Positions 21,042-62,247 of a stretch of 64,000 nt of DNA are shown one piece after another. The notes under the pieces are model-generated. The model was not told where the DNA came from. It worked only from the letters and a program-made list of their open reading frames with translations, and ran no database searches. The position numbers were made by a program, and so were the translations under genes. The stretch comes from Liolophura sinensis (Eukaryota; Mollusca; Polyplacophora; Chitonida; Chitonidae), in NCBI RefSeq assembly GCF_032854445.1, contig NC_088300.1, positions 71,148,984 through 71,212,983 on the forward strand. The letters are read 5' to 3'. Position 1 is the stretch's first letter. Each line of letters starts with the position of its first letter.

Positions 21042-24000
21042 TCACTTCCTTCCTGCCTTGTGCTTAAACTTCTTTCTCTGTTTCTTAGTAGGTCCTGAAT
21101 CTTCCAACACATCTGTTTGTGACTTTCTCTTTGTCTCCAAATTGTGACTGTAAAAGAAATAACCAAAACTTGTACTGAAGTATATGACTGTCAAATCAAT
21201 CATACAAAATATGTGAATTTCTCATGGAAAACACAACCAACAACACCTCAGTAACTACAACTCTTAATGACTAGTTACTGCAGAGCAGAACACCAGATTT
21301 ATACATAATGAAAAGGTAATGAAAACTGGAAAGCAGTGATCCTGGCTTTTTTTTTTTTTTGGCATTGCAAAATTTCTATGTGGTTCCAAATGATTCTGCA
21401 GTAGAGACTGTATGTGGTTCCAAATGATTCTGCAGTAGAAACTGTATGTGGTTCCAAATGATTCTACAGTAGAAACTGTATGTGGTTCCAAATGATTCTA
21501 CAGTAGAGACTGTATGTGGTTCCAAATGATTCTACAGTAGAAACTGTATGTGGTTCCAAATGATTCTACAGTAGAAACTGTATGTGGTTCCAAATGATTC
21601 TACAGTAAAAATTGTAGGTCTTTATCAGACAGAAAAGATGTACTTCTTCTATACAGAGTCCTAACCTCTGAAAGCTGATTGCTTTGTCTATCCTGAACTT
21701 CCCACTAACATTTTGACACTAAATCAGTCCATTTTGCAGTCTTACCTTTTGACACTAATCAGTCCCTGTTTAGAAGTCACCTTTTTGACACTAAATCAGT
21801 CCATTTTGGAGTCTCACCTTTTCACGGTTAGGAGTCTCATCTTTTGACACTAATCAGTCCCTGTTTTGGAGTCTTACCTTTTGATACTAACCAGCCCGTT
21901 TTAGAGTCTCACCTTTTGACACTAATCAGCCCCTGTTTTGGAGACTCACCTTTTGACACTAATCAGCCCCTGTTTTAGAGTCTCACCTTTTGACACTAAT
22001 CAGTCCCTGTTTTAGAGTCTCACCTTTTGACACTAATCAGTCCCTGTTTTAGAGTCTCACCTTTTGACACTAATCAGTCCCTGTTTTGGAGACTCACCTT
22101 TTGACACTAATCAGTCCCTGTTTAGGAGTGCCCTTCAGTGCCTTGGACCATGCCTCCTCTGAACCCTTGATGGTATACTGAGTCAAGTCCATGTCTTTTA
22201 GCACAGCCAGATCTTTCTTTTTCATTTTGTCTGTCACTTCTTTAGCAGCTTCAGTCTGAAAAACATTCAAAACAAATGCATATAGAGACATCAATGTCAG
22301 AACCTCCTGACTGGATATTGCTGGATCAGCTGACGATTGATACGCCTTTCACTTTTCTCCTTTATCAGCCAACACTATTATGGACCTACTATTTATGTAA
22401 AATGTACAAAAAGTTATACCTTCAATATTTGTTCAACCACAAGACAGAGACACAGAATTTGACCTCAAATTTAGAACACCACTACAGTTAATCATTGTGC
22501 CTGAATCTGGGTGTTCTATTCATCTGAGAAATGTGTTTTCGGTTATCCTACTCTTGTCATATAGTAGTGTAAAAGTGTACTATTTTATGACTTTCACTTG
22601 CCTCTCAAAGTGCATTTTGTCATGCAGATTTTCAGGACACACACAGCAACACATATCTAATCCCATGACATTTTCTCACAAGCACTCACCAGTTCCTGAT
22701 CCATGGCCTGTCCCACAGGTTCCATAATGATCTCTCTCCTCTCCACCAGTTCCGTCTCCACAGATCGCTCCAGGACCCTGTTGAAAGTCTATCAACAAAC
22801 ACATACCAGTTGAATGTACATGGAATCAATGTACACATCAGACAAAGCTGAGGACTTTACTCACCACACCAACCAGTAGACTTGATAACATTTTGACATA
22901 GATGATACTGAGTGAGTGAGTGCTTGGGGTTTAACGTCGTACTTAACAAGTTTTCATATGATGACAGAGGAATTCTAAGACTGCTTGTAATGTGCCTCCT
23001 TGTGGCAGGACGGATTCCCACCACTCTTTTATCTAGTGCTGCTTCACTGCGACACCTTACCGAAGGCAAGTAAGACGTCCCGCCCGAGCCATTATACTGA
23101 TACGGGTCAACCTGTTGTTGCACTATCCCCTTTATACTGGACGCCAAGCGAGGAAGTTACAACCTCCTCTTTTAAGGTCTTAGGTGTGACTCGAGCTAGG
23201 ACTGACCCTGGATCTACCATTCCTGAAGGGGACGTTCTACCAACTGTGCTATCGGGGCCGGTGGATGATTTTAGGATGTGCCTTCACAGGCTCAGTTGGC
23301 CAAGTGTTGGTCTTACAGCAGCCTATCGACCACTGACGGATGAGCCTACAAGCTCAAATCTAGCTTATGCTGATTCACTGGTGGCATTAAGTCAGAATCT
23401 GACCTGCATGTAGGCCACTGGGCTTTGAATACCAGAATTTCATGTTCCTCCATTTATTAATCTGCCTACTGTTGCATAAGTAATGTGATCTATAGGTACT
23501 CCTTATGAGGAAGCCATGCACCACGTTTCAACTGAATACAAGGAAATGTTTTCAAAACAGTCTAAACAGGATAAAAAGAACAATATGTTGAAACATCTCT
23601 GAGATGACCTATTTCACATCTCAAGGTTAACCTGTTAGATAGGACTCTTGACCTAATCACTCACCTGTACTAGTTTACGGATAATCCGTGTGAAGAGACC
23701 CAGAAGCTGACTGACAGGGAGGTCAAGGTCTTTGCTCAAGTCCTCAATCATTTTATGCTGAAGACCGATCCCTAACAACAATGCCTAAGGACAAAGTATG
23801 AAGAAATCTGTGGAGTGAATAGCTAATAAACCAAACAAAATAGAACACCAACACAGTTCACCTCTGTAAAGATTTGCGTTTGAGTTCAGTTGTGTTAATG
23901 ATTCCAAAGGATCTCACAAAGAAGATTTTACACCTGAAATTGGCTTTACTAAATATGACCGATATTATAAACTTAAAACATTTAATTATGTTTTAATATT

Positions 24001-32500: not shown

Positions 32501-35500
32501 TGATTTCAGTGGTATTTTACCCATAATCAAGACAGTTTTAATTAAGTGACATGATTGTTGGTTGTTGTCCTTATTTAAATTAGCAGATAAATTTTGTATC
32601 TGCTTCAAACCATCAAATTTTGTGATAATAAATCATCAACTTTAATATGTCAGCTTACTTCTGTACGTTGTATATCTCCAAATATGACTTACTATAAATC
32701 TTCAACTTTTCTGACCTCTAAAGTACTTTGTCAGTGGAATTCATGCATACAATTATTATGAAAATCACACTTACGATGTAAGCGTTACAAAACTGTGGAA
32801 ATTATATTTCTACAACCCAGTTCAGTTCTCATAATGTTTCAAATTATTGGGAAAAAAAAGGTACATGTACATGGATAACACATTTTTTTATTCTTTATGA
32901 AAACTCCGCTGCTTGTATTTCAAACAGCTCAGATTTTTTAAGGAAGGCTAAAATGAATTGATAAAAGCTTTAAACTTGAAGTATGAAACTTTTAGTATTT
33001 GCAACTGACCCACTGATTGTTGAAGACATAAACACAAGGTAAGGCCCGAGCAAACTCTTGACCAGGGGTAGGGGAATTGCAGCCGCCTCATCTATACACA
33101 CCAACTCTGCCTGACCCAGCTTGTGGGCATCACTGGGGTGGATGTACTGAAAAATCACACACAACTATAGTTGGCATCAAGAGACAAAAACAAAATGTGA
33201 AGAACTGCAATGTAAAGAGATTTATGATTCTTTTCTCAAAATTGGACAATCACAGTTTAATGATGTTTTGAATTTCATGTATAGGTCAAAAAAAAAAAAG
33301 AGAGAGATCTTTAGCTTTCCTGGAACAGATGTGCACTACACAAAATGGAGGAGAGAAAACATTCTCCAGACTGTCCATATTCCTAACTGCAAAGAGTGGA
33401 GATTCCTGACACTGCAAGGTACAATATCCTGGTACCAATGTGTTTGACTGGCATACGTTAGAATTGTGTCACAGATGCAGCTGTTGCTTTTGTGATCTGA
33501 AGTGTTTTGTCATACACAAAAAATGTTAACTCAATGTGCACATGAGGACATTCACCTGGATTGTCTGTCGATGTTCCCTGAAGATATTTACTCTGACAAT
33601 CGCTTTGTTAAACTCTGGGTTTGTAGACTGGACTAAATCGTAATCCAGGTGTTCCTGAGTGTACAAAATAGAATATCAATATGAGTACAAGAAAAGTGAA
33701 TGTTGACTGTGTCAACAACTGTACCAGGCAACAATCACATTCCTAAAGGAATAAAACTTTATTCATTTAGGCAAACAGAAAACTGTTTGCTCAGATATTA
33801 ATGTCCACTGTTTTAATATAATTTGAACATTTAAACTGTCTTAGTTTGAGTGAATATCTTTTAGTATCAGAAAGCAACAAATTCAATTTATCTTCCTACA
33901 GTGAAACAACTTTATATTATTAATGTCCAGTATAAATACTGGCTTGGGCCGATCACAGTGGTCCAATCAAATTTACTGTGAGTAACTGGGATACTTTTTT
34001 CAGTGCAAGGTATGTTCGTGTTTTGCTGAATCAATAATTCACTTGTCTGACAGCAGATGTTTCCATGTTACTAACAGCATACTAACATAATACTAACTCA
34101 TGTATTACATGATCATGACTGCAGCTGCTTTCCTTAGTATTTGAAAATTAAACAGGCTGATATTAAACTAACCTGGTATTCCAGGGCATCAAAACCTTTA
34201 AATATAAACTAACCTGGTATTCCAGGGCATCAAAACCTTTAAATATAAACTAACCTGGTATTCCAGGGCATCAAAACCTTTAAATATAAACTAACCTGGT
34301 ATTCCAGGGCATCAAAACCTTTAAATATAAACTCAAACAGCGTCTTCAGATTCTCAGGACTTGGGGCAGTGACGAAGATGTTGGAATACCTAAAAACAAG
34401 ATTGATTTGTACAGGCGCTACCTATATATTTACTGAGCCTGGCATGCAGTTTTTTTGCACCAGCAGCTCATAGCATCTGTTTTTATATATGTAATAATGA
34501 CAATCAAATTCAGTAAGGAAGCAATGTTTAAATTGTTTCAAGTATCAACTTGCAGGGTTGAAACCAGAAAATTTTCTAGAGTCCTTTTCTAGAGGCTGCG
34601 GACGAGGAGCCGCCCAGGCCCCGAAGCTCCCGGGGTCTAGATTGCTGGAGATGCATTCTCAGCCATTTCTGGCAACCTGAGAGACAATATCAGGGGTGCA
34701 AGTTTTGACAATTTTGTACATAATAATTGCTGAAATTTTTTTCATCAGTGCAACATTTGTGAGACTGCAGGGTTCTCTGAACAACCCTTTCAGCAAAAAC
34801 AAAAAATAAGTACCTATGTATCAACTAGGGGTGGGTATTGCCCCTAAAATCGTATTGCGATATATTGCGATATAGGAAAACTGTATTGCGTTATATGACT
34901 AGCTACAACACTTAAACAGAAGAAAAATAAAGCAATGCATAAGACGAACATTTTTTGAAAGTCCTACAAAAGTGATATGGCTTGTATCAAGATAACTATT
35001 AAATGTTAGTACGTTTTCTTGGAATGTGAGAATATGTAACTGTTGTTCAGCGAGTCATTTTAATTGGGTCAACTTTAAGTAAACATTTAACTAGTAAATG
35101 TCACACTCAAATATTTATTTCCACTGTAGAAATATACTTCATAATTAATAAAATTGCACTGCAAAAATAAATTCAAAAACTTTATGATGTATATATATTT
35201 TACAAATGTTTAGAGTGAGCTAAACATCAGTGATTCATAGAAGTCCAAATTTTACGAGCAGAAACTCAAAAAAAAAGTTTTTTGAGAGGGTATATAGAGT
35301 TTAAAAAAATTTGACCGGCCAATTCGGAATCCAAAGTGAGTTATGAGTATGAAATTTTATGACACCACCAAGTATTGGATTTCCAAGATTAAGGATTCTT
35401 TGCATTTCATACACAGAAAGAAAAAAAAACAAAACAAAACAAAACAACTGCAAGATAACCACTGTGGGTAATAACATCCTTACTAACTACTGGCAGGGGT

Positions 35501-38500: not shown

Positions 38501-41500
38501 ACTTCTGAACAAGCCTCCAGACACACCTGACAACCTCTGAACAAACCTCCGGACACACCTGCCAACCTCTGAACAAACCTCCGACACACCTGCCAACCTC
38601 TGAACAAACCTTCGGACACACTGAACAAACCTCTGGACACACTACACTTACCTTAACAAATCTTCGCACAAACATCCTGACACATCTGGCCAGTATGAGG
38701 TGGGCTCAAGTTCTGAGTGTTTTGTGTACATGTAGCCTTGAGATAATAGTCTCTTTGCTGGTTTGAAACCATTTGCTGGTTTGGCCATTGACTCTCACAG
38801 GTGTTTCCCAAAACACAAACATTGTCCCTCACATCAGAGGTTTCCCAAAACGTGGACATTGTCCCTCACAGATGTTTCCCAAAACATGGACATTGTCCCT
38901 CACAAGTGTTTCCCAAAACACAAACATTGTCCTTCACATCAGAGGTTTCCCAAAACATGGACATTGTCCCACGCATCACAGGTTTCCCAAAACATGGACA
39001 ATGTCCCTCAGATAAGGGTTTCCCAAAACATGGAAACTGTCCCTCACAGGTGTTTCCCAAAACATGGCCACTGTCCCACACATCAGAGGTTTCCCAAAAC
39101 ATGGACAATGTCCTTCGCATAAGGGTTTCTCAAAACATGGACATTGTCCCTCACATCAGAGGTTTCTCAAACCATGGACATTGTCCCTCACATAAGGGTT
39201 TCCTAAAACATGGACATTGTCCCACACATCAGGGGGTTCCCAAAACATGGACATTGTCCCTCACATCAGGGGTTTCCCAACACATGGACATTGTCCCTCA
39301 CATAAGGGTTTTCCCAAGACATGGACTTTGTCCCACACATAAGGGTTTTCCCATAACATGGACACTGTCCCACACATCAGGGGTTTCCCAAAACGTGGAC
39401 ATTGTCCCTCACATCAGGCATTTCCCAAAACATGGACATTGTCCCACACATAAGGGTTTTCCTAAGACATGGACATTGTCCCACACATCAGGGGTTTTCC
39501 AAAACATGGACACTGTCCCTCACATAAGGGTTTCCCAAAACATGGACACTGTCCCACACATCAGAGGTTTCTCAAACCATGGACATTGTCCCTCACATCA
39601 CAAGTTTCCAAAAACATGGACATTGTCCCTCACATCACAGGTTTCCCAACACATGGACATTGTCCCTCACATAAGGGTTTCCCAAAACATAGACCATTGT
39701 CCCACACATAAGGGTTTTCCTAAAATATGGATATTGTCCCACACATCAGGGGTTTCCCAAAACATGGACACTGTCCCTCACATCAGGCATTTCCCAAAAC
39801 ATGGACAGTGTCCCTCATATCAGGGGTTTCCCAAAACATGGACATTGTCCCACACATCAGGGGTATCCCAAAATTTTCATTTGTGCAAATAACAAAAATA
39901 TCACAAATATTTTCCCTTATTTCTGAATCCTTTTGGTAACAAATTTGAAGCAAATGAAGTGTTATCTTTGTGACTGGTACAACAATTATCTCCCGTAATA
40001 TATTCATAAATCATAAACTGCATCAAAGAAAGTTCAGCACGATGTGAAGCTGTACATTCTAATGTTAAGCTGTACATTCTAATGTTAAGCTGTCCATTCT
40101 AATGTGAAGCTGTACATTCTAATGTGAAGCTGTACATTTTAATGTGGAACCCTTCATTCTGACATTCAGGTCACGCTGGCTTCCTCTCCGGCTAACAACC
40201 TTCGGAAGGTTGTGGGTTTCCGCTGGGCTCTGCCTGGTTTCCTCCCACAATAATGCTGGCCGCCGTCGTATAAGTGAAATATTCTTGAGCACAGCGTAGA
40301 ACATCCATCAAATCAATAAATAGATAAAACATGGGGGCCTCCTTGGCTCAGTTGGTTAGCGCGCTAGCGCATCGTAATGACCCAGGAGCCTCTCACTAAT
40401 GCGGTTGCTGTGAGTTCAAGTCCAGCTTGTGCTGGCTTCCCCAATCAAATAAACACCAATCAAATCAATAAATAAATAAATGCATTCTGATCTGGAGCCG
40501 TACACTTTGATGTTGAGCTATACATTCTTATGGGGATCCCTACATTTTGATGTGAATCTGTACATTTTGAGGTGAAGCTGTACATTCTAATGTGAGGCCC
40601 TATATTCTGGTGTTAAGGTTTACATTCTTACATGGAGCCCTACATTCTGATGTGAAGCTGTACATTCTGATGTGAAGCCCTACATTCTGATGTGAAGCCA
40701 CACATTCTGATGTGAAGCCCTAAATTCTAATGCTAAGCTGTACATTCTGATGTGAAGCTGTACATGTGGAGCCCTTTATTCTGATGTGAAGCTGTATATT
40801 CTGATGTCAAGCCATGCATTCTGACATTAAGCTGTGCAATCTGATGTGAAGCCTTACATCCTGATGTGAAGCTGTACACTGTGATGTGGAGTTCTATGTT
40901 GTGATGTGAAGCTGTACATTCTGATGTGAAGCTGTACATTCTGATGTGGAGCCCAACATTCTGATGTGAAGCTGTACATTCTGATGTTAAGCTGTACATT
41001 CTGATGTGAAGCTGTACATTCTGATGTGAAGCTGTACTTTCTGATGTGAAGCCATACTTTCTGACATAAGCTGTACATTCTGATGTGAAGCTATACTTTC
41101 TGATGTAAAGCCAAACATTCTGATGCGAAGCCATACATTCTGACAGGAAGCTGTACATTCTGATGTGAAGCTGTACATTCTGATGTGAAGCTGTACATTC
41201 TGATGTGGAGCCCAACATTCTGATGTGAAGCTGTACATTCTGATGTTAAGCTGTACATTCTGATGTGAAGCTGTACATTCTGATGTTAAGCTGTACATTC
41301 TGATGTGAAGCTGTACATTCTGATGTGAAGCTGTACTTTCTGATGTGAAGCCATACTTTCTGACATAAGCTGTACATTCTGATGTGAAGCTATACTTTCT
41401 GATGTAAAGCCAAACATTCTGATGCGAAGCCATACATTCTGACAGGAAGCTGTACATTCTGATGTGAAGCTGTACTTTTTGATGTGAAGCCGTACATTCT

Positions 41501-43826
41501 GATGTGAGGCCATACTTTCTGATATGAAGCTGTACATTCTGGTGTGAAGCTATACATTCTGATGTGAAGGCATAGATTGTGATGTGAAGCTGTACATTCT
41601 AATGTGGAGCCCTACATGTACAATCAACCAAAAGTTACCACCTTTCATTGAATCTGGCAACTACATCCTGATGAGACTCAGTTCTGAACCGTGTGTGAAC
41701 TTCCTAAAACAAATAAAATCGAAATCAGTATTCAAATATATAAGAATTTATACTTACAAGAAAACTGCCATGATAAAGTCTGGAAGAAGTGGGCAAAATG
41801 AAGGAGAAATCATGTAGTTATTGCAAAAGATAAAGTCATGGTCAATAATAAAAGCATCGTTTCAGGGCTTTTTGCTCATCTACTGCCAATTTCTGAAATA
41901 TTTTATTTCCAAACAACTTCCATATAAAATAATGTTTCAACTTACCATAGTCATGGTGTAGAGCTGTTTTAAGGACTTCATCGACCTTAACAGAATGAGT
42001 ATAACCCCTCCCCCCTCCACTGTCTCAATGGAACGTGCGAGGAGATTTGGAGTTAATGCTTCAAAATCCTTAAATGGAAAAAATGGACAAAACATTGTCT
42101 ATAAAGAAACTGCAAAACTGAAACTGCAACAGATTTTGTCCAGAATTTGAAGAGCTTAAAATGAAACTGTGAACCACATTGTAAGACACACACTTGTACA
42201 TGTATATAATGAAATTCAACTTTTGGAATTCTGGGACAAATTCTCCTAAGCTGATGACAATTTATGAAATCAAATGAAACCATTCAGTAGAAATCAATTA
42301 ATCTAACTGATATTTGACATTTCTTCCATTGTGAGAAGCTTGGGAAAATGTTCACCTTAGCCATAGCCAGCGAAATCCTTTTTAACAACCTCATGATAAT
42401 TCCATCAAGTGACCTTGGTGGTTTGAGCGCTGAACATCTTGATGAACAATGCCTTCATCAACGCTAATTTCTTTACCTGTAAAATACACATGCCATAGGT
42501 GTTGCCCAGAATCTTGTGGGTGTCGGCGTAATAACAGTAGCGAATGTCTGTAGCAGAGATAAACAACTCAAAGGGATCATCCTCCTTCACATCGATTTTT
42601 CCCATTTTTATTTTCTTCTGCAGCTGTTTCATTCGCTTCTTCCTGTGACTGAACCAACATAAAATAGCAGGAATAAGATTAGCTTCATAAATAATACGTT
42701 ATATGCATCTGGAAGGATTTGATTTCCACTGTTTTGTCATCAGCATAAGGGGAATGTTTATTGTTTACTGATTATGATGCCATTCTCCGTCCACGCTATA
42801 GCCATCACTGTAAATCTATAACACTATTCTCATTTACTATGTTTTACTTGTAGAATATTTATTTTTTTTTTTTGCTTTACCTGCTGAATCCCAGCTCTTT
42901 CTTGTAGCACCACAGCACTGATGGTCTCGTCTTTACCACAGCCTTTGACAACATGTGATGCAAAATGACGACCTAAAGCAGGGAACATATCTATTTAATT
43001 TGAGTACTGATGTCACTGGTCATCAGCCAATCATACATGTAGCAATGTTGTTGATAACAACTCCGCAGAATTTCATATTTTCATAATTTTGATCTGTTAT
43101 AATTCACTGATCGATTGAATTCATTCATGATGCAAGTCTAAAGAATAAGATGCATCAGTATTTCAGAAGTCTCACAAGTTCATGCAAGTTTGTTGAGACA
43201 AGGTGGAGACTTCAGCAAACTCTCATGACCAAATGATGTGATCTTGAGCCTCCAGGCCTGGCATTGCAAGATGCTTTTTCGGTCTAGCTAATAATTAAAA
43301 TCATGCCTTTTAGCTGGGTTAATTTATGAGAGCCCCCCACTATATCTAGTCCAATCCCACAATAACTCAAAAGACTCCTGAAATGCCAATTCTCCTTATA
43401 TTTCATTTACTGGAAGTTTTATTTATGGAATAGGGGAACAGGAATAAAGCTGGAAGAAGTCACCATATTTCATCAGGCAACTAATGCCATATTACATAAG
43501 TGCCTGAAAACACACCTCACAAAAAAGGTCACAGCTGAACGAGTGAGAACTGGACTTGAACACACCACCTGATTGGTCAAAAACCTGTAATCTTCAGAAT
43601 TTTCACTGCACAGACAACTAAACCAATGAGAAAGGGCCCAATATTATGAGTATTTGTTAAAAAAAAAACAAAAAAAAAAAAAAACAAAACACACACACAC
43701 ACACACACCCTTCCTCACCTGATCTCTTCCATGATCTCCAATCACCACAAACATTGTCCTGTGTTTCTGTGCCACACCATTCTCTATCAGGACACGCAGG
43801 CGATTGTCAATTTTCTTCCGAACCAT
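21042..43826 (-). CDS. NAT10: NAT10, RNA cytidine acetyltransferase (complete, 26 coding exons)
   Basis: Exons in transcript order: 43826-43719, 42972-42881, 42648-42477, 42068-41946, 41703-41642, 38350-38236, 37635-37528, 36733-36600, 34389-34296, 33654-33556, 33146-33010, 32474-32332, 31205-30958, 30401-30285, 29982-29881, 29385-29311, 28311-28195, 27023-26890, 26664-26616, 26257-26152, 25386-25279, 24305-24136, 23784-23665, 22788-22690, 22255-22098, 21147-21042. They total 3096 nt, that is 1031 codons plus TGA, with every phase consistent and all introns GT-AG. The family makes N4-acetylcytidine in 18S rRNA and tRNA, using ATP and acetyl-CoA, in the nucleolus. In order: N-terminal DUF1726-type region, P-loop ATPase module (Walker A lysine at residue 290), GNAT acetyltransferase core, a tRNA-binding C-terminal region, and a lysine-rich tail. 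The start is the ATG before VRKKIDNRLRVLIENG, which matches the family N-terminus. Exons 9 and 25 have duplicated donor sites. Confidence 0.97.
21377..21614. repeat. 34-bp minisatellite, 7 copies
   Basis: Units starting TATGTGGTTCCAAATGATTC begin at 21377, 21411, 21445, 21479, 21513, 21547 and 21581, an exact 34-bp step. Variation is limited to a few A/G positions, plus changes in the last unit. It lies in the last NAT10 intron, just beside the separate 37-bp array. Confidence 0.95.
21711..22133. repeat. 37-bp array containing duplicated exon end plus 5' splice site (NAT10 exon 25)
   Basis: The unit contains TTTTGACACTAATCAGTCCC on the + strand. On the minus strand each unit reads from the last part of exon 25 (GGGACTGATTAGTGTCAAAAG) into GTGAGAC or GTAAGAC. 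Intact GT donors follow exon-like ends at 22098 (the proximal one), 22061, 22024, 21987, 21950, 21913, 21878, 21818, 21781 and 21746. One copy near 21840 has GT changed to AT. Units near the exon are almost identical; distal ones are diverged and of irregular length. Confidence 0.93.
22905..23272 (-). repeat. tRNA-derived SINE-like element (family B)
   Basis: The left edge reads GAGTGAGTGAGTGCTTGGGG. On the minus strand the right edge is tRNA-like (CGATAGCACAGTTGGTAGAA, then TAGATCCAGGGTCAG), so the element is oriented on the minus strand with its head at the right. It lies in a NAT10 intron. An open frame at 23000-23413 crosses it and is incidental. Confidence 0.7.
24488..24690 (-). repeat. 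SINE family A, head-truncated
   Basis: It contains the tail (TTTATTTATTTGATTAGTG) and the body (GGGCCCGGGGGAAACCCACA) through to the box B region (GGACTTGAAATC). It stops before box A. It lies in NAT10 intron 21. Confidence 0.85.
26152..31205 (-). CDS. NAT10: NAT10 exons 13-20: GNAT acetyltransferase core
   Basis: Exon 13 encodes the conserved SGCPLPEHCDLYYVNRDTLF and SLYVASHYK. Exon 14 has LQMLSDAPAHH. Exon 15 has the QTIMNSLSRGQRAAGDLIPW block. Exons 16-17 meet at RIATHPDYQG|MGYGTRAL, the acetyl-CoA pyrophosphate-binding motif of GNAT enzymes. Exons 18-20 carry LPPLLLKLSER, LDYLGVSYGLT, FWKKSGFTPVYLRQTQ and LTGEHTCIML. No catalytic-region deletion or frameshift is seen, so the enzyme is predicted to be active. 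The exon 16 acceptor is the upstream of two AGs, chosen because it restores the conserved FQDNDF. Confidence 0.95.
26461..26519. repeat. (AT)n microsatellite
   Basis: About 58 bases of uninterrupted AT dinucleotide repeat in a NAT10 intron. It is likely length-variable between individuals. Confidence 0.98.
27244..28013 (-). repeat. Family-B element in two pieces
   Basis: The left piece (27244-27480) matches the copy at 61150: ATGCTTGG, TACTTAACAA, GTCTTCTT, GGCAAGTCCATC and AACCAGTCCTGTTTCC. The right piece (27880-28013) has GCCAAGCCAGGCAGCAAC-type sequence, ACCATTTTTAAAG and a minus-strand tRNA-like end. About 400 bp of unrelated sequence separates them, in contrast to the continuous copy at 61150-61496. 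Confidence 0.6.
28732..28987 (-). repeat. SINE family A, diverged, nearly full length
   Basis: Tail TTTATTTATTTGATTCATG, body AAACCGGGCAGAGCCGGTGG, and a decayed tRNA-like head ending CACTATGCCACAGAG. It lies between NAT10 exons 16 and 17. Confidence 0.85.
31257..31876 (-). repeat. SINE family A split by a tandem array
   Basis: 31257-31356 resembles the SINE tail and body (ATTCTCAAGAATAAGTCACT, then a GGGCAGAG motif). 31797-31876 resembles the tRNA-like head in reverse (CTCCTGGGTCTTTGCACC, GGCCACTGAGGCTCCC). The middle is replaced by the 41-bp array at 31360-31612 and AT-rich filler. Confidence 0.5.
31360..31612. repeat. 41-bp minisatellite, about 6 copies
   Basis: The unit contains GAGTGAGTGCTTGGGGTTTA, ACGTCGCACTGG and CAGAGCCTG. 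The first part equals the left edge of the family-B element at 22912; CAGAGCC also occurs in the family-A body. The array looks like an expansion at a junction of two elements. Confidence 0.9.
31940..32101. repeat. 33-bp minisatellite, about 5 copies
   Basis: Units are built on AATTAGCTACTCCAATCAAT followed by CTACATGCATACT, with substitutions in each copy. It lies in NAT10 intron 12, between exons 12 and 13. Confidence 0.85.
32332..36733 (-). CDS. NAT10: NAT10 exons 8-12: RecA/helicase-like ATPase module
   Basis: Exon 8 carries the Walker A loop TAARGRGKSAALG; its lysine is residue 290, the same number as the ATP-binding lysine described for human NAT10. Exon 9 reads YSNIFVTAPSPENLKTLFEF and ends FDALEYQ. 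Exon 10 has FREHRQTIQ. Exon 11 has the Walker B-like IDEAAAIPLPLVKSLLGPY. Exon 12 starts with YEGTGRSLSLKL, after which the sequence runs through a variable serine/alanine-rich linker. Exon 9 is followed by three extra copies of its own 3' end and donor at 34168-34290. Confidence 0.95.
34168..34331. repeat. 41-bp array containing duplicated exon end plus 5' splice site (NAT10 exon 9)
   Basis: Four 41-bp units start with CTAACCTGGTATTCCAGGGC at 34168, 34209, 34250 and 34291. On the minus strand each is the last 36 bases of exon 9 (coding FIFKGFDALEYQ) followed by donor GTTAG. Exon-like ends therefore fall at 34296 (proximal, used in the gene model), 34255, 34214 and 34173. The copies appear identical, which suggests recent expansion. 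Confidence 0.96.
36395..36480 (+). repeat. SINE tail fragment (family C)
   Basis: AAAATTCTTAAGTAAGGCAT followed by TAAACAACAATGAAATACAT matches the tail of the copy at 5636-5755. It lies in a NAT10 intron. Confidence 0.45.
37965..38135. repeat. About 37-bp minisatellite, left block
   Basis: About four units of TTTCCCAAAACATGGACATT plus GTCCCTCACATCAGAGG. The same repeat family forms the much longer block at 38800-39872. NAT10 exon 6 (38236-38350) lies between the two blocks. Confidence 0.92.
38478..38665. repeat. About 31-32-bp minisatellite
   Basis: Units of CTCTGAACAAACCTCCGGAC plus ACACCTGCCAA, about six copies including shortened ones. Short minus-strand open frames across it (38414-38675) are low-complexity and not genes. 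Confidence 0.88.
38800..39872. repeat. 34-38-bp minisatellite, right block (about 29 units)
   Basis: Repeats of TTTCCCAAAACATGGACATT and GTCCCTCACATCAGAGG-type sequence with frequent 1-3-bp length changes. A 363-codon open frame crosses it (38801-39892) because stops are absent from the unit in that frame. The frame has no start context, splice context or recognisable domain, so I do not call a gene. Confidence 0.95.
40165..40323 (+). repeat. SINE family A, 5'-truncated
   Basis: It begins within the body (GCTGGCTTCCTCTCCGGC), then GTTGTGGGTTTCCGCTGGGC, the AAGTGAAATATTCTTGAGCA tail and ATCAATAAATAGATAAA. It is embedded in the 20-bp array. Confidence 0.88.
40333..40483 (+). repeat. SINE family A, internally deleted
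   Basis: A well-kept head (GGCTCAGTTGGTTAGCGCGC and GAGTTCAAGTCC) is joined, just after GTGCTGGCTTCC, straight to the tail CCAATCAAATAAACACCAAT and AATAAATAAATAAA. The whole central body is missing. It directly follows another SINE piece. Confidence 0.88.
41642..43826 (-). CDS. NAT10: NAT10 exons 1-5: N-terminal domain
   Basis: Encodes residues 1-185. Recognised from VRKKIDNRLRVLIENGVAQ, FVVIGDHGRDQ, the PSVLWCYKKELGFSSHRKKR junction across exons 2 and 3, DDPFELFISATDIRYCYY and HKILGNTYGMC. These match the start of NAT10/Kre33 proteins closely. Exon 5 ends in AG and exon 6 supplies the last base of an arginine codon (NER|FILSL). Minus-strand sequence TTATTCTCAG just before the ATG could be the acceptor of a 5'-UTR intron, so the transcription start is probably further right, perhaps near 44600-44720. 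Confidence 0.95.
43690..43710. repeat. (CA)n microsatellite
   Basis: A short run of about nine CA units beside A-rich sequence, a few bases from the NAT10 exon 1 donor (on the minus strand it lies just inside intron 1). Confidence 0.9.
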
Positions 43827-45244: not shown

Positions 45245-46020
45245 GTAGCTCTGCAAGGCTGTGATTACGTATACTATCACAGCCCTGTCTTGTTCTGTAG
45301 GGCTGTGATTTTGTATACTATCATAGCCCTGTCTTGTTCTGCAGGGTTGTGATTACGTGTACTATCATCTTGTTTTGTTCTGTAGGGCTGTGATTACCTA
45401 TACTATCACAACCCTGTCTTGTTCTGTAGGGCTGTGATTACGTATACTATCACAGCCCTGTCTTGTTCTGCAGGGCTGTGATTACGTATACTATCATCTT
45501 GTTTTGTTCTGTAGGGCTGTGATTACCTATACTATCACACCCCTGTCTTGTTCTGTAGGGCTGTGATTACGTATACTATCATAGCCCTGTCTTGTTCTGC
45601 AGGGCTGTAATTACGTATACTATCATCTTGTTTTGTTCTGTAGGGCTGTGATTACATATACTATCACAACCCTGTCTTGTTCTGTAGGGCCGTGATTACG
45701 TATACTATCATAACCCTGTCTTGTTCTGCAGGGCTGTAATTACGTATACTATCATCTTGTTTTGTTCTGTAGGGCTGTGATTACGTATACTATCACAGCC
45801 CTGTCTTGTTCTGTAGGGCTGTGATTACGTATACTATCACAGCCCTGTCTTGTTCTGCAGGGCTGTGATTACGTATACTATCATCTTGTTTTGTTCTGTA
45901 GGGCTGTGATTACCTATACTATCACAACCCTGTCTTGTTCTGTAGGGCTGTTATTGCGTATACTATCACAGCCCTGTCTTGTTCTGTATGGCTGTTATTA
46001 CGTATACTATCACAGCCCTG
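45245..46020. repeat. 44/41-bp satellite with A-A-B higher-order pattern and hairpin
   Basis: About 18 monomers of GGCTGTGATTACGTATACTA-type sequence. A-type monomers (44 bp) hold a perfect inverted repeat GGGCTGTGAT...ATCACAGCCC around a 10-nt loop. B-type monomers (41 bp) replace the right arm with ATCATCTTGTTTTG. Most of the array runs A-A-B-A-A-B, a period of about 129 bp. Confidence 0.93.
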
Positions 46021-47306: not shown

Positions 47307-48985
47307 AATTTTGTGAATGTTGCTATCACTGGAGGGTATAATTTTGTGAATGCTGCTATCACTAGAGGATATAATTTGTGAATGTTGCTATTACTGGAGG
47401 GTATAATTTGTGAATGTTGCTATCACTGGAGGGTATAATTTTGTGAATGATGCTATCACTAGAGGATATAATTTGTGAATGTTACTATCACTGGAGGGTA
47501 TAATTTGTTAATGTTACTATCACTGGCGGGTATATTTTGTGAATGTTGCTATTACTGGAAGGTATAATTTGTTCATGTTACTATCACTGGAGGGTATAAT
47601 TTGTGAATGTTACTATTACTGGAGGGTATAATTTTGTGAATGTTGCTATCACTGGAGGGTATAATTTTGTGAATGCTGCTATCACTAGAGGATATAATTT
47701 GTGAATGTTGCTATTACTGGAGGGTATAATGTGTTAATGTTGCTATCACTGGAGGGTATAATTTTGTGAATGCTGCTATCACTAGAGGATATAATTTGTG
47801 AATGTTGCTATTACTGGAGAATATAATTTGTTAATGCTCTTATCACTGGAGAATATAATTTGTTAATGTTACTATCACTGGCGGGTATATTTTGTGAATG
47901 TTGCTATTACTGGAGGGTATAATTTGTTCATGTTACTATCACTGGAGGGTATAATTTGTTAATGTTACTATCACTGGAGGGTATAATTTTGTGAATGTTG
48001 CTATCACTGGAAGGTATAATTTTGTGAATGCTGCTATCACTAGAGGATATAATTTGTGAATGTTGCTATTACTGGAGGGTATAATTTGTTAATGTTGCTA
48101 TCACTGGAGGGTATAATTTTGTGAATGCTGCTATCACTGGAGGATATAATTTGTGAATGTTGCTATTACCTGAGAATATAATTTGTTAATGCTCTTATCA
48201 CTGGAGAATATAATTTGTTAATGTTACTATCACTGGCGGGTATATTTTGTGAATGTTGCTATTACTGGAGGGTATAATTTGTTCATGTTACTATCACTGG
48301 AGGGTATAATTTGTTAATGTTACTATCACTGGAGGGTGTAATCTTGTGGGTGTTGCTATGACTGGAGGGTATAATTTGTTCATGTTACTATCACTGGAGG
48401 GTATAATCTTGTAAATGTTGCGATCACTGGAGGGTATAATTTGTTAATGTTACTATCACTGGAGGGTATATTTTGTGAATGTTGCTATTACTGGAGGGTA
48501 TAATTTGTTCATGTTACTATCACTGGAGGGTATAATTTGTTAACGTTACTATCACTGGAGGGAATAATTTTGTGAATGTTGCTATTACTGGAGGGTATAA
48601 TTTTGTGAATGTTGCTATCACTAGAGGATATAATTTGTGAATGTTGCTATTACTGGAGGGTATAATTTGTTAATGTTGCTATCACTGGAGGGTATAATTT
48701 TGTGAATGTTGCTATTACTGGAGGGTATAATTTTGTGAATGTTGCTATCACTAGAGGATATAATTTGTGAATGTTGCTATTACTGGAGGGTATAATTTGT
48801 TAATGTTACTATCACTGGAGGGTATAATTTTGTGAATGTTGCTATCACTAGAGGATATAATTTGTGAATGTTGCTATTACTGGAGGATATAATTTGTTAA
48901 TGCTCTTATCACTGGAGAATATTTGTTAATGTTACTATCAATGGAGGATATAATTTGCGAATTTTGCGATCACTGGAGGATATAA
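47307..48985. repeat. 32-33-bp satellite-like array (about 50 units)
   Basis: Units of GGAGGGTATAATTTGTGAAT plus GTTGCTATCACT. Variants (CTAGAGGATATAAT, GTTCATGTTACTAT, TTAATGCTCTTATC) recur in the same order several times, so blocks have been duplicated. It decays at about 48950-49060 into sequence with recognisable half-units. Confidence 0.95.
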
Positions 48986-49235
48986 TTGGTGGAGAGGTTG
49001 TAATCAGCTGAGGATCTAGTTTGTGGATGATGTGACATGTGGAGGATATTGTTTACAGGGTATTGTTTACATTGTTGTGATCAGTGGATAATGTGTCATA
49101 GTTAAGGTGCTATGACCCGTTAGATGTTGCATGCTAGTATGTATAACAAAATCGTACAGAACAGTGGGCCCTATACCACCCTGCCCCATAATTTGCGAAA
49201 TTATACACTACCGAAGAAGTGGTCGCAAAACAGGT

Positions 49236-58849: not shown

Positions 58850-59312
58850 GCTGTTGGTCTGCCGTTGGGTTGGTCTTTCGTACGGTTGGTTTGTCGTTGG
58901 GTTGGTCTGTAGTACGGTTGGTCTGTCGTTGGGGTGATCTGTTGTACGGTTGGTCTGTCGTTGGGTTGATCTGTTATGCGGTTGGTCTGTCGTTGGGTTG
59001 GTCTGTCGTACGGTTGGTCTGTTGCTGGGTTGGTCTGTCGTATGGTGGTCTGTCGTACGGTTGATCTGTCGTTCGCTTGGTCTGTCGTACGGTTGGTCTG
59101 TTGCTCGTTGGTTTGTCGTTGGGTTGGTCTTTCGTACGGTTAGTCCGTCGTACGGTTGGCCTGTCCTTGGGTTGGGCTGTCGTTGAGTTGGTGTGTGGTT
59201 CGGTTGGTCTGTCGTTGACTTGGTCTTTCGTACGGTTGGTCTGTCGTTGGGCTGGTCTGTAGTTGGGTTGGGCTGTCGTTGAGCTGGTCTGTCGTTCGGT
59301 TGGTCTGTCGTT
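58850..59312. repeat. 16-bp minisatellite (about 28 units)
   Basis: The unit is GGTTGGTCTGTCGTTG with alternating GTAC and GTTG ends. Because 16 is not a multiple of 3, each frame cycles through a 16-residue repeat, giving long stop-free frames on both strands (for example minus 58787-59323, rich in T, D, Q, P, N and R). These are repeat artefacts, not genes. Confidence 0.95.
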
Positions 59313-60169
59313 CGATTCGTCAAACTTCTGACATCCTATTCTTAAACATGGATAATTCAGATAACGAATGGCTGGAGTTCAGGACAACATCGATTCTTTA
59401 ATCGGTTTTTATGACGAACACACCAACGCCCATTTTTGAGGGTCTTCAGGTGTGCCCTTTATTTTGTGACCAGAGGGAATACTCGTTATCCTGTGAAATA
59501 CACAATTTCACGATACAATATTCTAATACATACAACAAAGTGAAAGTATCACGTGTTTGTTATAGTTATCATAAAAAGGTGTCTGGACGGCAAGATACTA
59601 GGCTAACACACTATACAGCTATATATGCTGTTTATAGTTTTAAAGTTACACATGCAGAAGCTCTCAGACGTTCATCTCAATGAAAGATATTCCTTAGTTT
59701 GTTATGTAACCAAACGATAAATGAAAGATTATAAGGTTTGAAGTACATCGTCAACTTTGAACTATGAACTATAGATGAAACAAGAGAAAGTTGAGAGTTT
59801 GTTAGTACTTGGGCGGTATTTGTAGATTATAGCAAACATATCAAAGTTTATCATGGTAACCCCAGTAATGGAACAAACTGCCCAACGTAGACTCGGAATG
59901 GAACTACCACCACTCAAAGATTTGAAACGGCTTGTGTGGCGTCTAAAAGAAGTAAAGTGAATCTTTTGCACTACGAGAAATCAATTATTGTACAGGTCCA
60001 ATGCTTAATGCAAACACAATTTGCAAAAGTAACAAAACGTTCTTTTACTCTTTTCAAATACATGTACTAATGATATACATGCTGCTCGAACCTAATATAT
60101 CATTAGTTAATTATCCATATTTAATCAGCAAAACAACAACAATATTGTACCGACTACAACTATCGTCAT
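59313..60169. other. Intergenic DNA
   Basis: No gene recognised. A segment near 59366-59400 (GCTGGAGTTCAGGACAACAT) has a close second copy near 60933-60965. Confidence 0.55.
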
Positions 60170-61496: not shown

Positions 61497-61887
61497 ATAT
61501 TTGAGTAGTCCACAAGTATATAACACAGTTTCTTCCACAACACGTTGTAAGCTAGATTTGGTCCTGTAGCCTGTACGATTAAGTAGGGATGGAGGTGGCA
61601 AAGAGTTCATAAATACTGAAATAAACGGGATTTTCCAGCACATTCCAGAAGAAATCAATAATTGTCTTCCTGGACATTCTTGTAGACAACATAACGAACG
61701 GAGTAGCTAGCGCGCAAGTCCACAGATATATCACCTGATATGAGAGGTCTAGCTGGTTTCATATTTGATACCGTAGAATGTGTAACGTACAAAACAGTAG
61801 TCAGGACTATCGGAGAATAATGAGGAGAGCATCAGAGCCTGTGCGGAAAGGACTCGCCACCTCCTCTCACCTCTCTCCTCCCGTCAG

Positions 61888-62247
61888 GTAGTTGACAAGG
61901 CTGCTTGCTGGAATGCCAGTCCATACCACTGGGTAGTTGACAAAGCTGCTTGCTGGAATGCCAGTCCATACCACTGGGTAGTTGACAAAGCTGCTTGCTG
62001 GAATGCCAGTCCATACCACTAGGTAGGTGACAAAGCTGCTTGCTGGAATGCCAGTCCATGCCACTGGGTAGTTGACAAAGCAGCTTGCTGGAATGCCAGT
62101 CCATGCCACTGGGTAGTTGACAAAGCTGCTTGCTGGAATGCCAGTCCATGCCACTGGGTAGTTGACAAAGCTGCTTGCTGGAATGCCAGTCCATACCACT
62201 CGGTAGTTGACAAAGCTGCTTGCTGGAATGCACGCCCATACCACTGG
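61888..62247. repeat. 45-bp minisatellite, 8 copies
   Basis: Units of GTAGTTGACAAAGCTGCTTG plus CTGGAATGCCAGTCCATACC and ACTGG repeat eight times with few changes. As 45 is divisible by 3, several minus-strand frames stay open (one encodes a repeat of MDWHSSKQLCQLPSG). There is no splice or start context that makes a gene convincing. Confidence 0.95.

Follow-up and report, generated by a model that had tools for sequence, protein, structure and literature searches.

The window, a 64,000-nucleotide stretch of Liolophura sinensis DNA (NC_088300.1, positions 71,148,984 to 71,212,983), contains a gene for NAT10 on its minus strand. The conceptual protein, made by joining the exon peptides by hand, matches the Pfam domains TmcA_N, NAT10_TcmA_helicase, GNAT_acetyltr_2, and tRNA_bind_2 in that order, at a strength far above the cut-offs (E values 8.3e-61, 1e-54, 2e-103, and 9.1e-73, respectively). 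The gene comprises at least 24 exon pieces and two short ones by the present count; the exon numbers 25 and 26 used here are those of an earlier, sequence-only reading of this DNA. The peptide encoded by exon 25 aligns to residues 939–989 of 7mq8 chain NJ (E 6.8e-6), a chain of 1,025 aa designated "RNA cytidine acetyltransferase" which we take to be human, and the last lysine of the exon falls at residue 989. Exon 26 encodes a tail of 35 aa, 12 of them lysine or arginine. Two reviews assign nuclear or nucleolar targeting of human NAT10 to a signal at residues 989–1018; they disagree on the role of residues 68–75.

The end of exon 25 is repeated into intron 25 as a 37-bp minisatellite (ladder 1; Table 1), the unit of which consists of approximately the last 31 nt of the exon together with its 5' splice site. 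Tandem Repeats Finder (TRF) reports it as two rows, one at 21831–22129 (37 bp, 8.1 copies, 92% matches, score 493) and one at 21711–21822 (36 bp, 3.1 copies, 78% matches, score 152), and with these scores the array is far beyond chance. By TRF and alignment the copies lie head to tail, with a unit in the range of roughly 10–100 bp expected of a minisatellite. Exon-like ends followed by GT are found at 22098, 22061, 22024, 21987, 21950, 21913, 21878, 21818, 21781, and 21746, and the GT has become AT at 21841, so that the ten donors and one loss claimed in the sequence-only reading agree with the present inspection to the base. Past the array, near 21710, there is a further degenerate copy end, AAAAT followed by GTTAGT. 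When the 423-bp stretch was searched at the DNA level against the entire genome, with simple repeats skipped, it matched only its own locus. Scored with a matrix built from the 211 donors called in sample 1 of the survey described below, the first donor (AAG/GTGAGT) reaches 12.2, compared with 10.5 for the distal form that occurs most often; eight of the ten distal sites lie above the native lower quartile, as does 21781 when scored directly. Intron 25 also contains a second minisatellite, whose minus-strand unit holds TTTCTACTGTAG, acceptor-like in appearance.

Table 1. Positions of NAT10 features and arrays in the window, and loci of the junction-spanning arrays in sample 1.
Feature	Position or locus	Strand	Length or basis
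NAT10 exon 25 (penultimate coding exon)	22255-22098	minus	158 nt
NAT10 intron 25	22097-21148	minus	950 nt
NAT10 exon 26, coding part (basic tail and stop codon)	21147-21042	minus	106 nt
Donor ladder 1 (37-bp minisatellite, ~11 copies)	21711-22129	minus	TRF and sequence inspection
Exon-edge donor GTGAGT	22097-22092	minus	95th percentile among 211 donors called in the genome
Nine intact distal donors (ends 22061 to 21746) and lost GT (21841)	22061-21740	minus	donor matrix
Second intron 25 minisatellite (34 bp x 7.1, 97%), without exon sequence	21377-21616	minus	TRF
Donor ladder 2 (41-bp unit x 4.1, 100% identical)	34164-34333	minus	TRF and sequence
NAT10 internal exon ending FKGFDALEYQ, source of ladder 2	34389-34296	minus	sequence
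Donor arrays, sample 1	L010, L017, L025, L039, L044, L046, L051, L072, L075, L081		by eye
Acceptor arrays, sample 1	L019, L029, L044 (another exon), L062, L091		by eye

The same gene has another such array (ladder 2), which the sequence-only reading does not mention. Here the end of an internal exon and its donor, GTTAGT, are followed by three exact repeats of both, with donors after 34296, 34255, 34214, and 34173. Read conceptually, use of any of the distal ones would shift the frame and lead to a stop.

Minisatellites are plentiful in general, with 32 TRF rows in the window and 90 blocks in the 295,501 bases sampled elsewhere. Long ones in the window lie at 38798–39873, 45250–46020, 47310–48991, 58853–59314, and 61887–62247, and a 20-bp array of 57 copies (40483–41610) starts just past where a NAT10 exon ends (RFNER, near 41640), seemingly without including its donor. 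The published repeat table assigns 0.08% to "Other (simple repeat, microsatellite, RNA)" and 14.04% to unclassified repeats.

What distal donor use in ladder 1 would produce can be read from the frame. Any distal choice is predicted to give VKR and then TGA, with loss of the lysine-rich tail, both as had been proposed. The stop would lie 33 nt before the last junction with the first distal donor (about 35 had been claimed), 70 nt with the second, and at least 70 nt with later ones. Nonsense-mediated decay (NMD) generally acts when a premature stop precedes the last junction by more than about 50 nt, and by this rule the first distal donor alone would escape it. Since exon 25 ends at aligned residue 989, distal use would remove just the 989–1018 signal; any such use is predicted to yield a protein ending at the equivalent of residue 989, without the nuclear or nucleolar signal that the two reviews report. 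This coincidence, the strength of the distal donors, and the stop-to-junction distances are the points in favor of a length-tunable switch, in which the first distal donor would give a stable mRNA for a NAT10 form without its basic targeting tail and further donors would send the transcript to NMD.

Two samples of exons in other genes were surveyed for junction-spanning arrays. For sample 1, 248 exons were retrieved together with flanking sequence, out of 327 matches listed for the myosin-head, kinesin, adaptin, and dynein AAA_6 models; sample 2 comprised 64 exons matched by tRNA synthetase and ABC transporter models. The genome searches scored part of the candidates. Exon ends were approximated by the edges of the HMM matches. 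TRF blocks with a period of at least 10 and a score of at least 50 were considered candidates if they fell no more than 60 nt from the edge of a match, and one reader, who knew the hypothesis, decided by eye whether an array contained the junction. Sample 1 gave 72 TRF blocks and 30 candidate block-edge pairs, all of which were viewed, and 15 contain the junction (Table 1). The 15 left out were at L009, L023 (two), L033, L034, L041, L048 (two), L049, L053, L060 (three), L066, and L089. In sample 2 four of nine candidates were counted, all of them donor arrays (L104, L106, L116, and L156) and none acceptor, where about four were predicted at the sample 1 rate; L108, L122, L142, L145, and L154 were left out, L122 being borderline, with an exon start that resembles the unit and copies lacking AG. 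L025 and L116 were counted despite diverged copies nearest the exon, and without both the counts become 14/248 and 3/64.

Over both samples, 19 of 312 exons, chosen as strong matches to six domain families rather than drawn at random, have a junction-spanning array (Wilson interval 3.9–9.3%), 14 of them at donors and five at acceptors, an imbalance which is not significant (P 0.06). Ladders are thus a common class in this chiton genome, present at about one sampled exon in sixteen; if the sample rate held genome-wide, they would number in the thousands. In two acceptor ladders, L062 (oriented 42–511) and L019 (1–505), the units TTGTCAG/GTAT and TTTGTAG/GTTT have AG followed directly by GT. AG with GT directly after it is also the form of recursive-splicing sites.

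With ladder 2 in the same gene and junction-spanning arrays at 19 of 312 exons of other genes, the idea of a tunable switch particular to NAT10 is not supported. Similarly built ladders occur at unrelated exons, an internal NAT10 exon included, where distal use would give no sensible isoform, and the distal GT is conserved no better than background (below). As the main reading, a regulatory switch was set back by ladder 2 and by the ladders in other families, and it is considered very improbable. NAT10 would be special in one way, namely that distal use would cost it the tail, that is, the reported nuclear or nucleolar signal.

Distal use is predicted, by conceptual reading, to cause truncation or a frame shift in 15 of 16 donor arrays, the exception being L075, with its 30-bp unit, so the layout gives no sign of a designed output. 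It does fit a different possibility, that splicing at distal sites is infrequent and its products are lost to NMD, dampening expression in proportion to copy number. Many distal sites match native donors in strength: 80 of 108 exceed the native lower quartile and 56 of 108 the native median, and the first donor is equalled or surpassed by a distal site in 15 of 16 donor arrays. The first donor is stronger than the median distal one in five of the 16 (NAT10 ladder 1, L010, L046, L081, and L104), and in these selection could be acting. Harmful leakage should however purge distal GT, and no depletion is seen. Copies were aligned to their units (27–124 bp) in 21 arrays, the 19 of the survey and the two in NAT10. 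Of 151 full distal copies, 128 retain GT or AG. Mean conservation of the splice dinucleotide in full distal copies is 0.945, and random dinucleotides give 0.923 (P 0.18 for higher conservation); weighted by copy, the values are 0.914 for distal GT/AG and 0.915 for other dinucleotides. Conservation of the distal dinucleotide in single arrays ranges from 0.75 (L104) to 1.0. Overall, there is no sign of distal GT/AG being either kept or purged in these 21 arrays, several of which have few copies and in which weak selection is possible. Leakage of this kind appears improbable. The sequence-only reading had also offered a tolerated accident as the alternative to its switch, and this part gains from the survey, with ladders at 19 of 312 exons in other genes and distal GT/AG decaying at the background rate.

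That the arrays are an error of assembly is very unlikely. Tandem arrays are difficult to assemble, and HiFi depth here is 14x; against this, the copies differ among themselves in most arrays, the arrays are on several scaffolds and adjoin intact exons, and the mean HiFi read, at 8,347 bp, is longer than either ladder 1 or ladder 2.

How often arrays should span junctions by accident can be estimated from minisatellite density. Random seeding from the sample-wide density predicts 4.85 spanning arrays in sample 1 and 1.47 in sample 2, and the 19 observed among the 90 TRF blocks compare with 6.3 expected on this basis (P 4e-5). Taking the density no further than 120 nt from exons raises the expectation to 9.4 (P 0.004). 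None of 5000 random placements in sample 1 reached 15, the number observed over all blocks; blocks scoring 100 or more account for 14. Given this excess over random seeding, simple accident may fall short as an explanation, and splice junctions in this lineage might be mutational hot spots at which minisatellites arise, rather than just places that tolerate them. On the other side, the counts use HMM match edges as stand-ins for exon ends and a visual assessment of the candidates, and a 24-mer coverage test found no junction excess, with downstream recurrence at 7 of 211 donors versus 11 of 211 controls placed at +60; six of the 11 recurring control 24-mers fall in junction-spanning arrays. 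Any junction excess is two- to three-fold at most, and not firm. A hot-spot origin, which is compatible with the explanation preferred here, is a possibility on the doubtful side of even.

That preferred explanation, which is considered probable, is that in a minisatellite-rich genome minisatellites have been seeded across exon edges and are tolerated since it is the exon-edge copy that is used. At NAT10, a tandem duplication would have straddled the border between exon 25 and intron 25, and because of this position every copy would have received a usable-looking 5' splice site; the array would then have expanded into the intron. The duplication would be tolerated since the exon-edge copy could still serve the original exon. 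That this copy is the one used is inferred from coding continuity, which requires it. Distal copies would presumably be used too little to affect fitness, the choice being made by position (the shortest exon, perhaps through exon definition) and not by site strength, and copy number would be free to drift.

A more far-reaching combination can also be put together, in which minisatellites are born preferentially at exon-intron borders, many genes have ladders, and the spliceosome goes by position alone, taking the copy at the exon edge (the first of the donors or the last of the acceptors). As a whole this is rather unlikely; if preferential birth and choice by position were both true, the genome would amount to a natural experiment on choosing among equal splice sites. 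The usual way to study such choices is to engineer duplications. This single genome seems to offer many natural examples, at donors as well as acceptors, in which copies of often equal strength are set apart by their position, and these raise the question of how the cell selects the right one.

No prior report of splice-site ladders was found in a literature search of a partial collection with few terms, so comparison is with systems that share some of their features. Like minisatellites and VNTRs in general, ladders are made of head-to-tail copies, with some higher-order structure (L046 and L156); what sets them apart is a unit that includes an exon end with its splice site, and an array anchored where the exon ends or begins. 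Another known class is that of alternative tandem 5' splice sites, in which a single exon is followed by a series of candidate donors. Chiton ladders likewise line up candidate donors, here regularly spaced, near-identical, and as many as 17 or more (L010). A third likeness is to intron gain by tandem genomic duplication (the AGGT model), where duplication of exon sequence containing AG/GT multiplies splice sites (PMC3443670). In contrast to that model, the chiton copies adjoin an intron with an unrelated acceptor, the exon 26 acceptor TTTCTTTTACAG not being a copy of the 37-bp unit, and the result would be competing sites of the same kind and no new intron. Finally, in intron 5 of dog LHX3 a 7-bp repeat has a bearing on splicing, thought to act via intron length (PMC3223203). 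That too is an intronic tandem repeat connected with splicing; the chiton arrays are distinct in multiplying the splice site itself.
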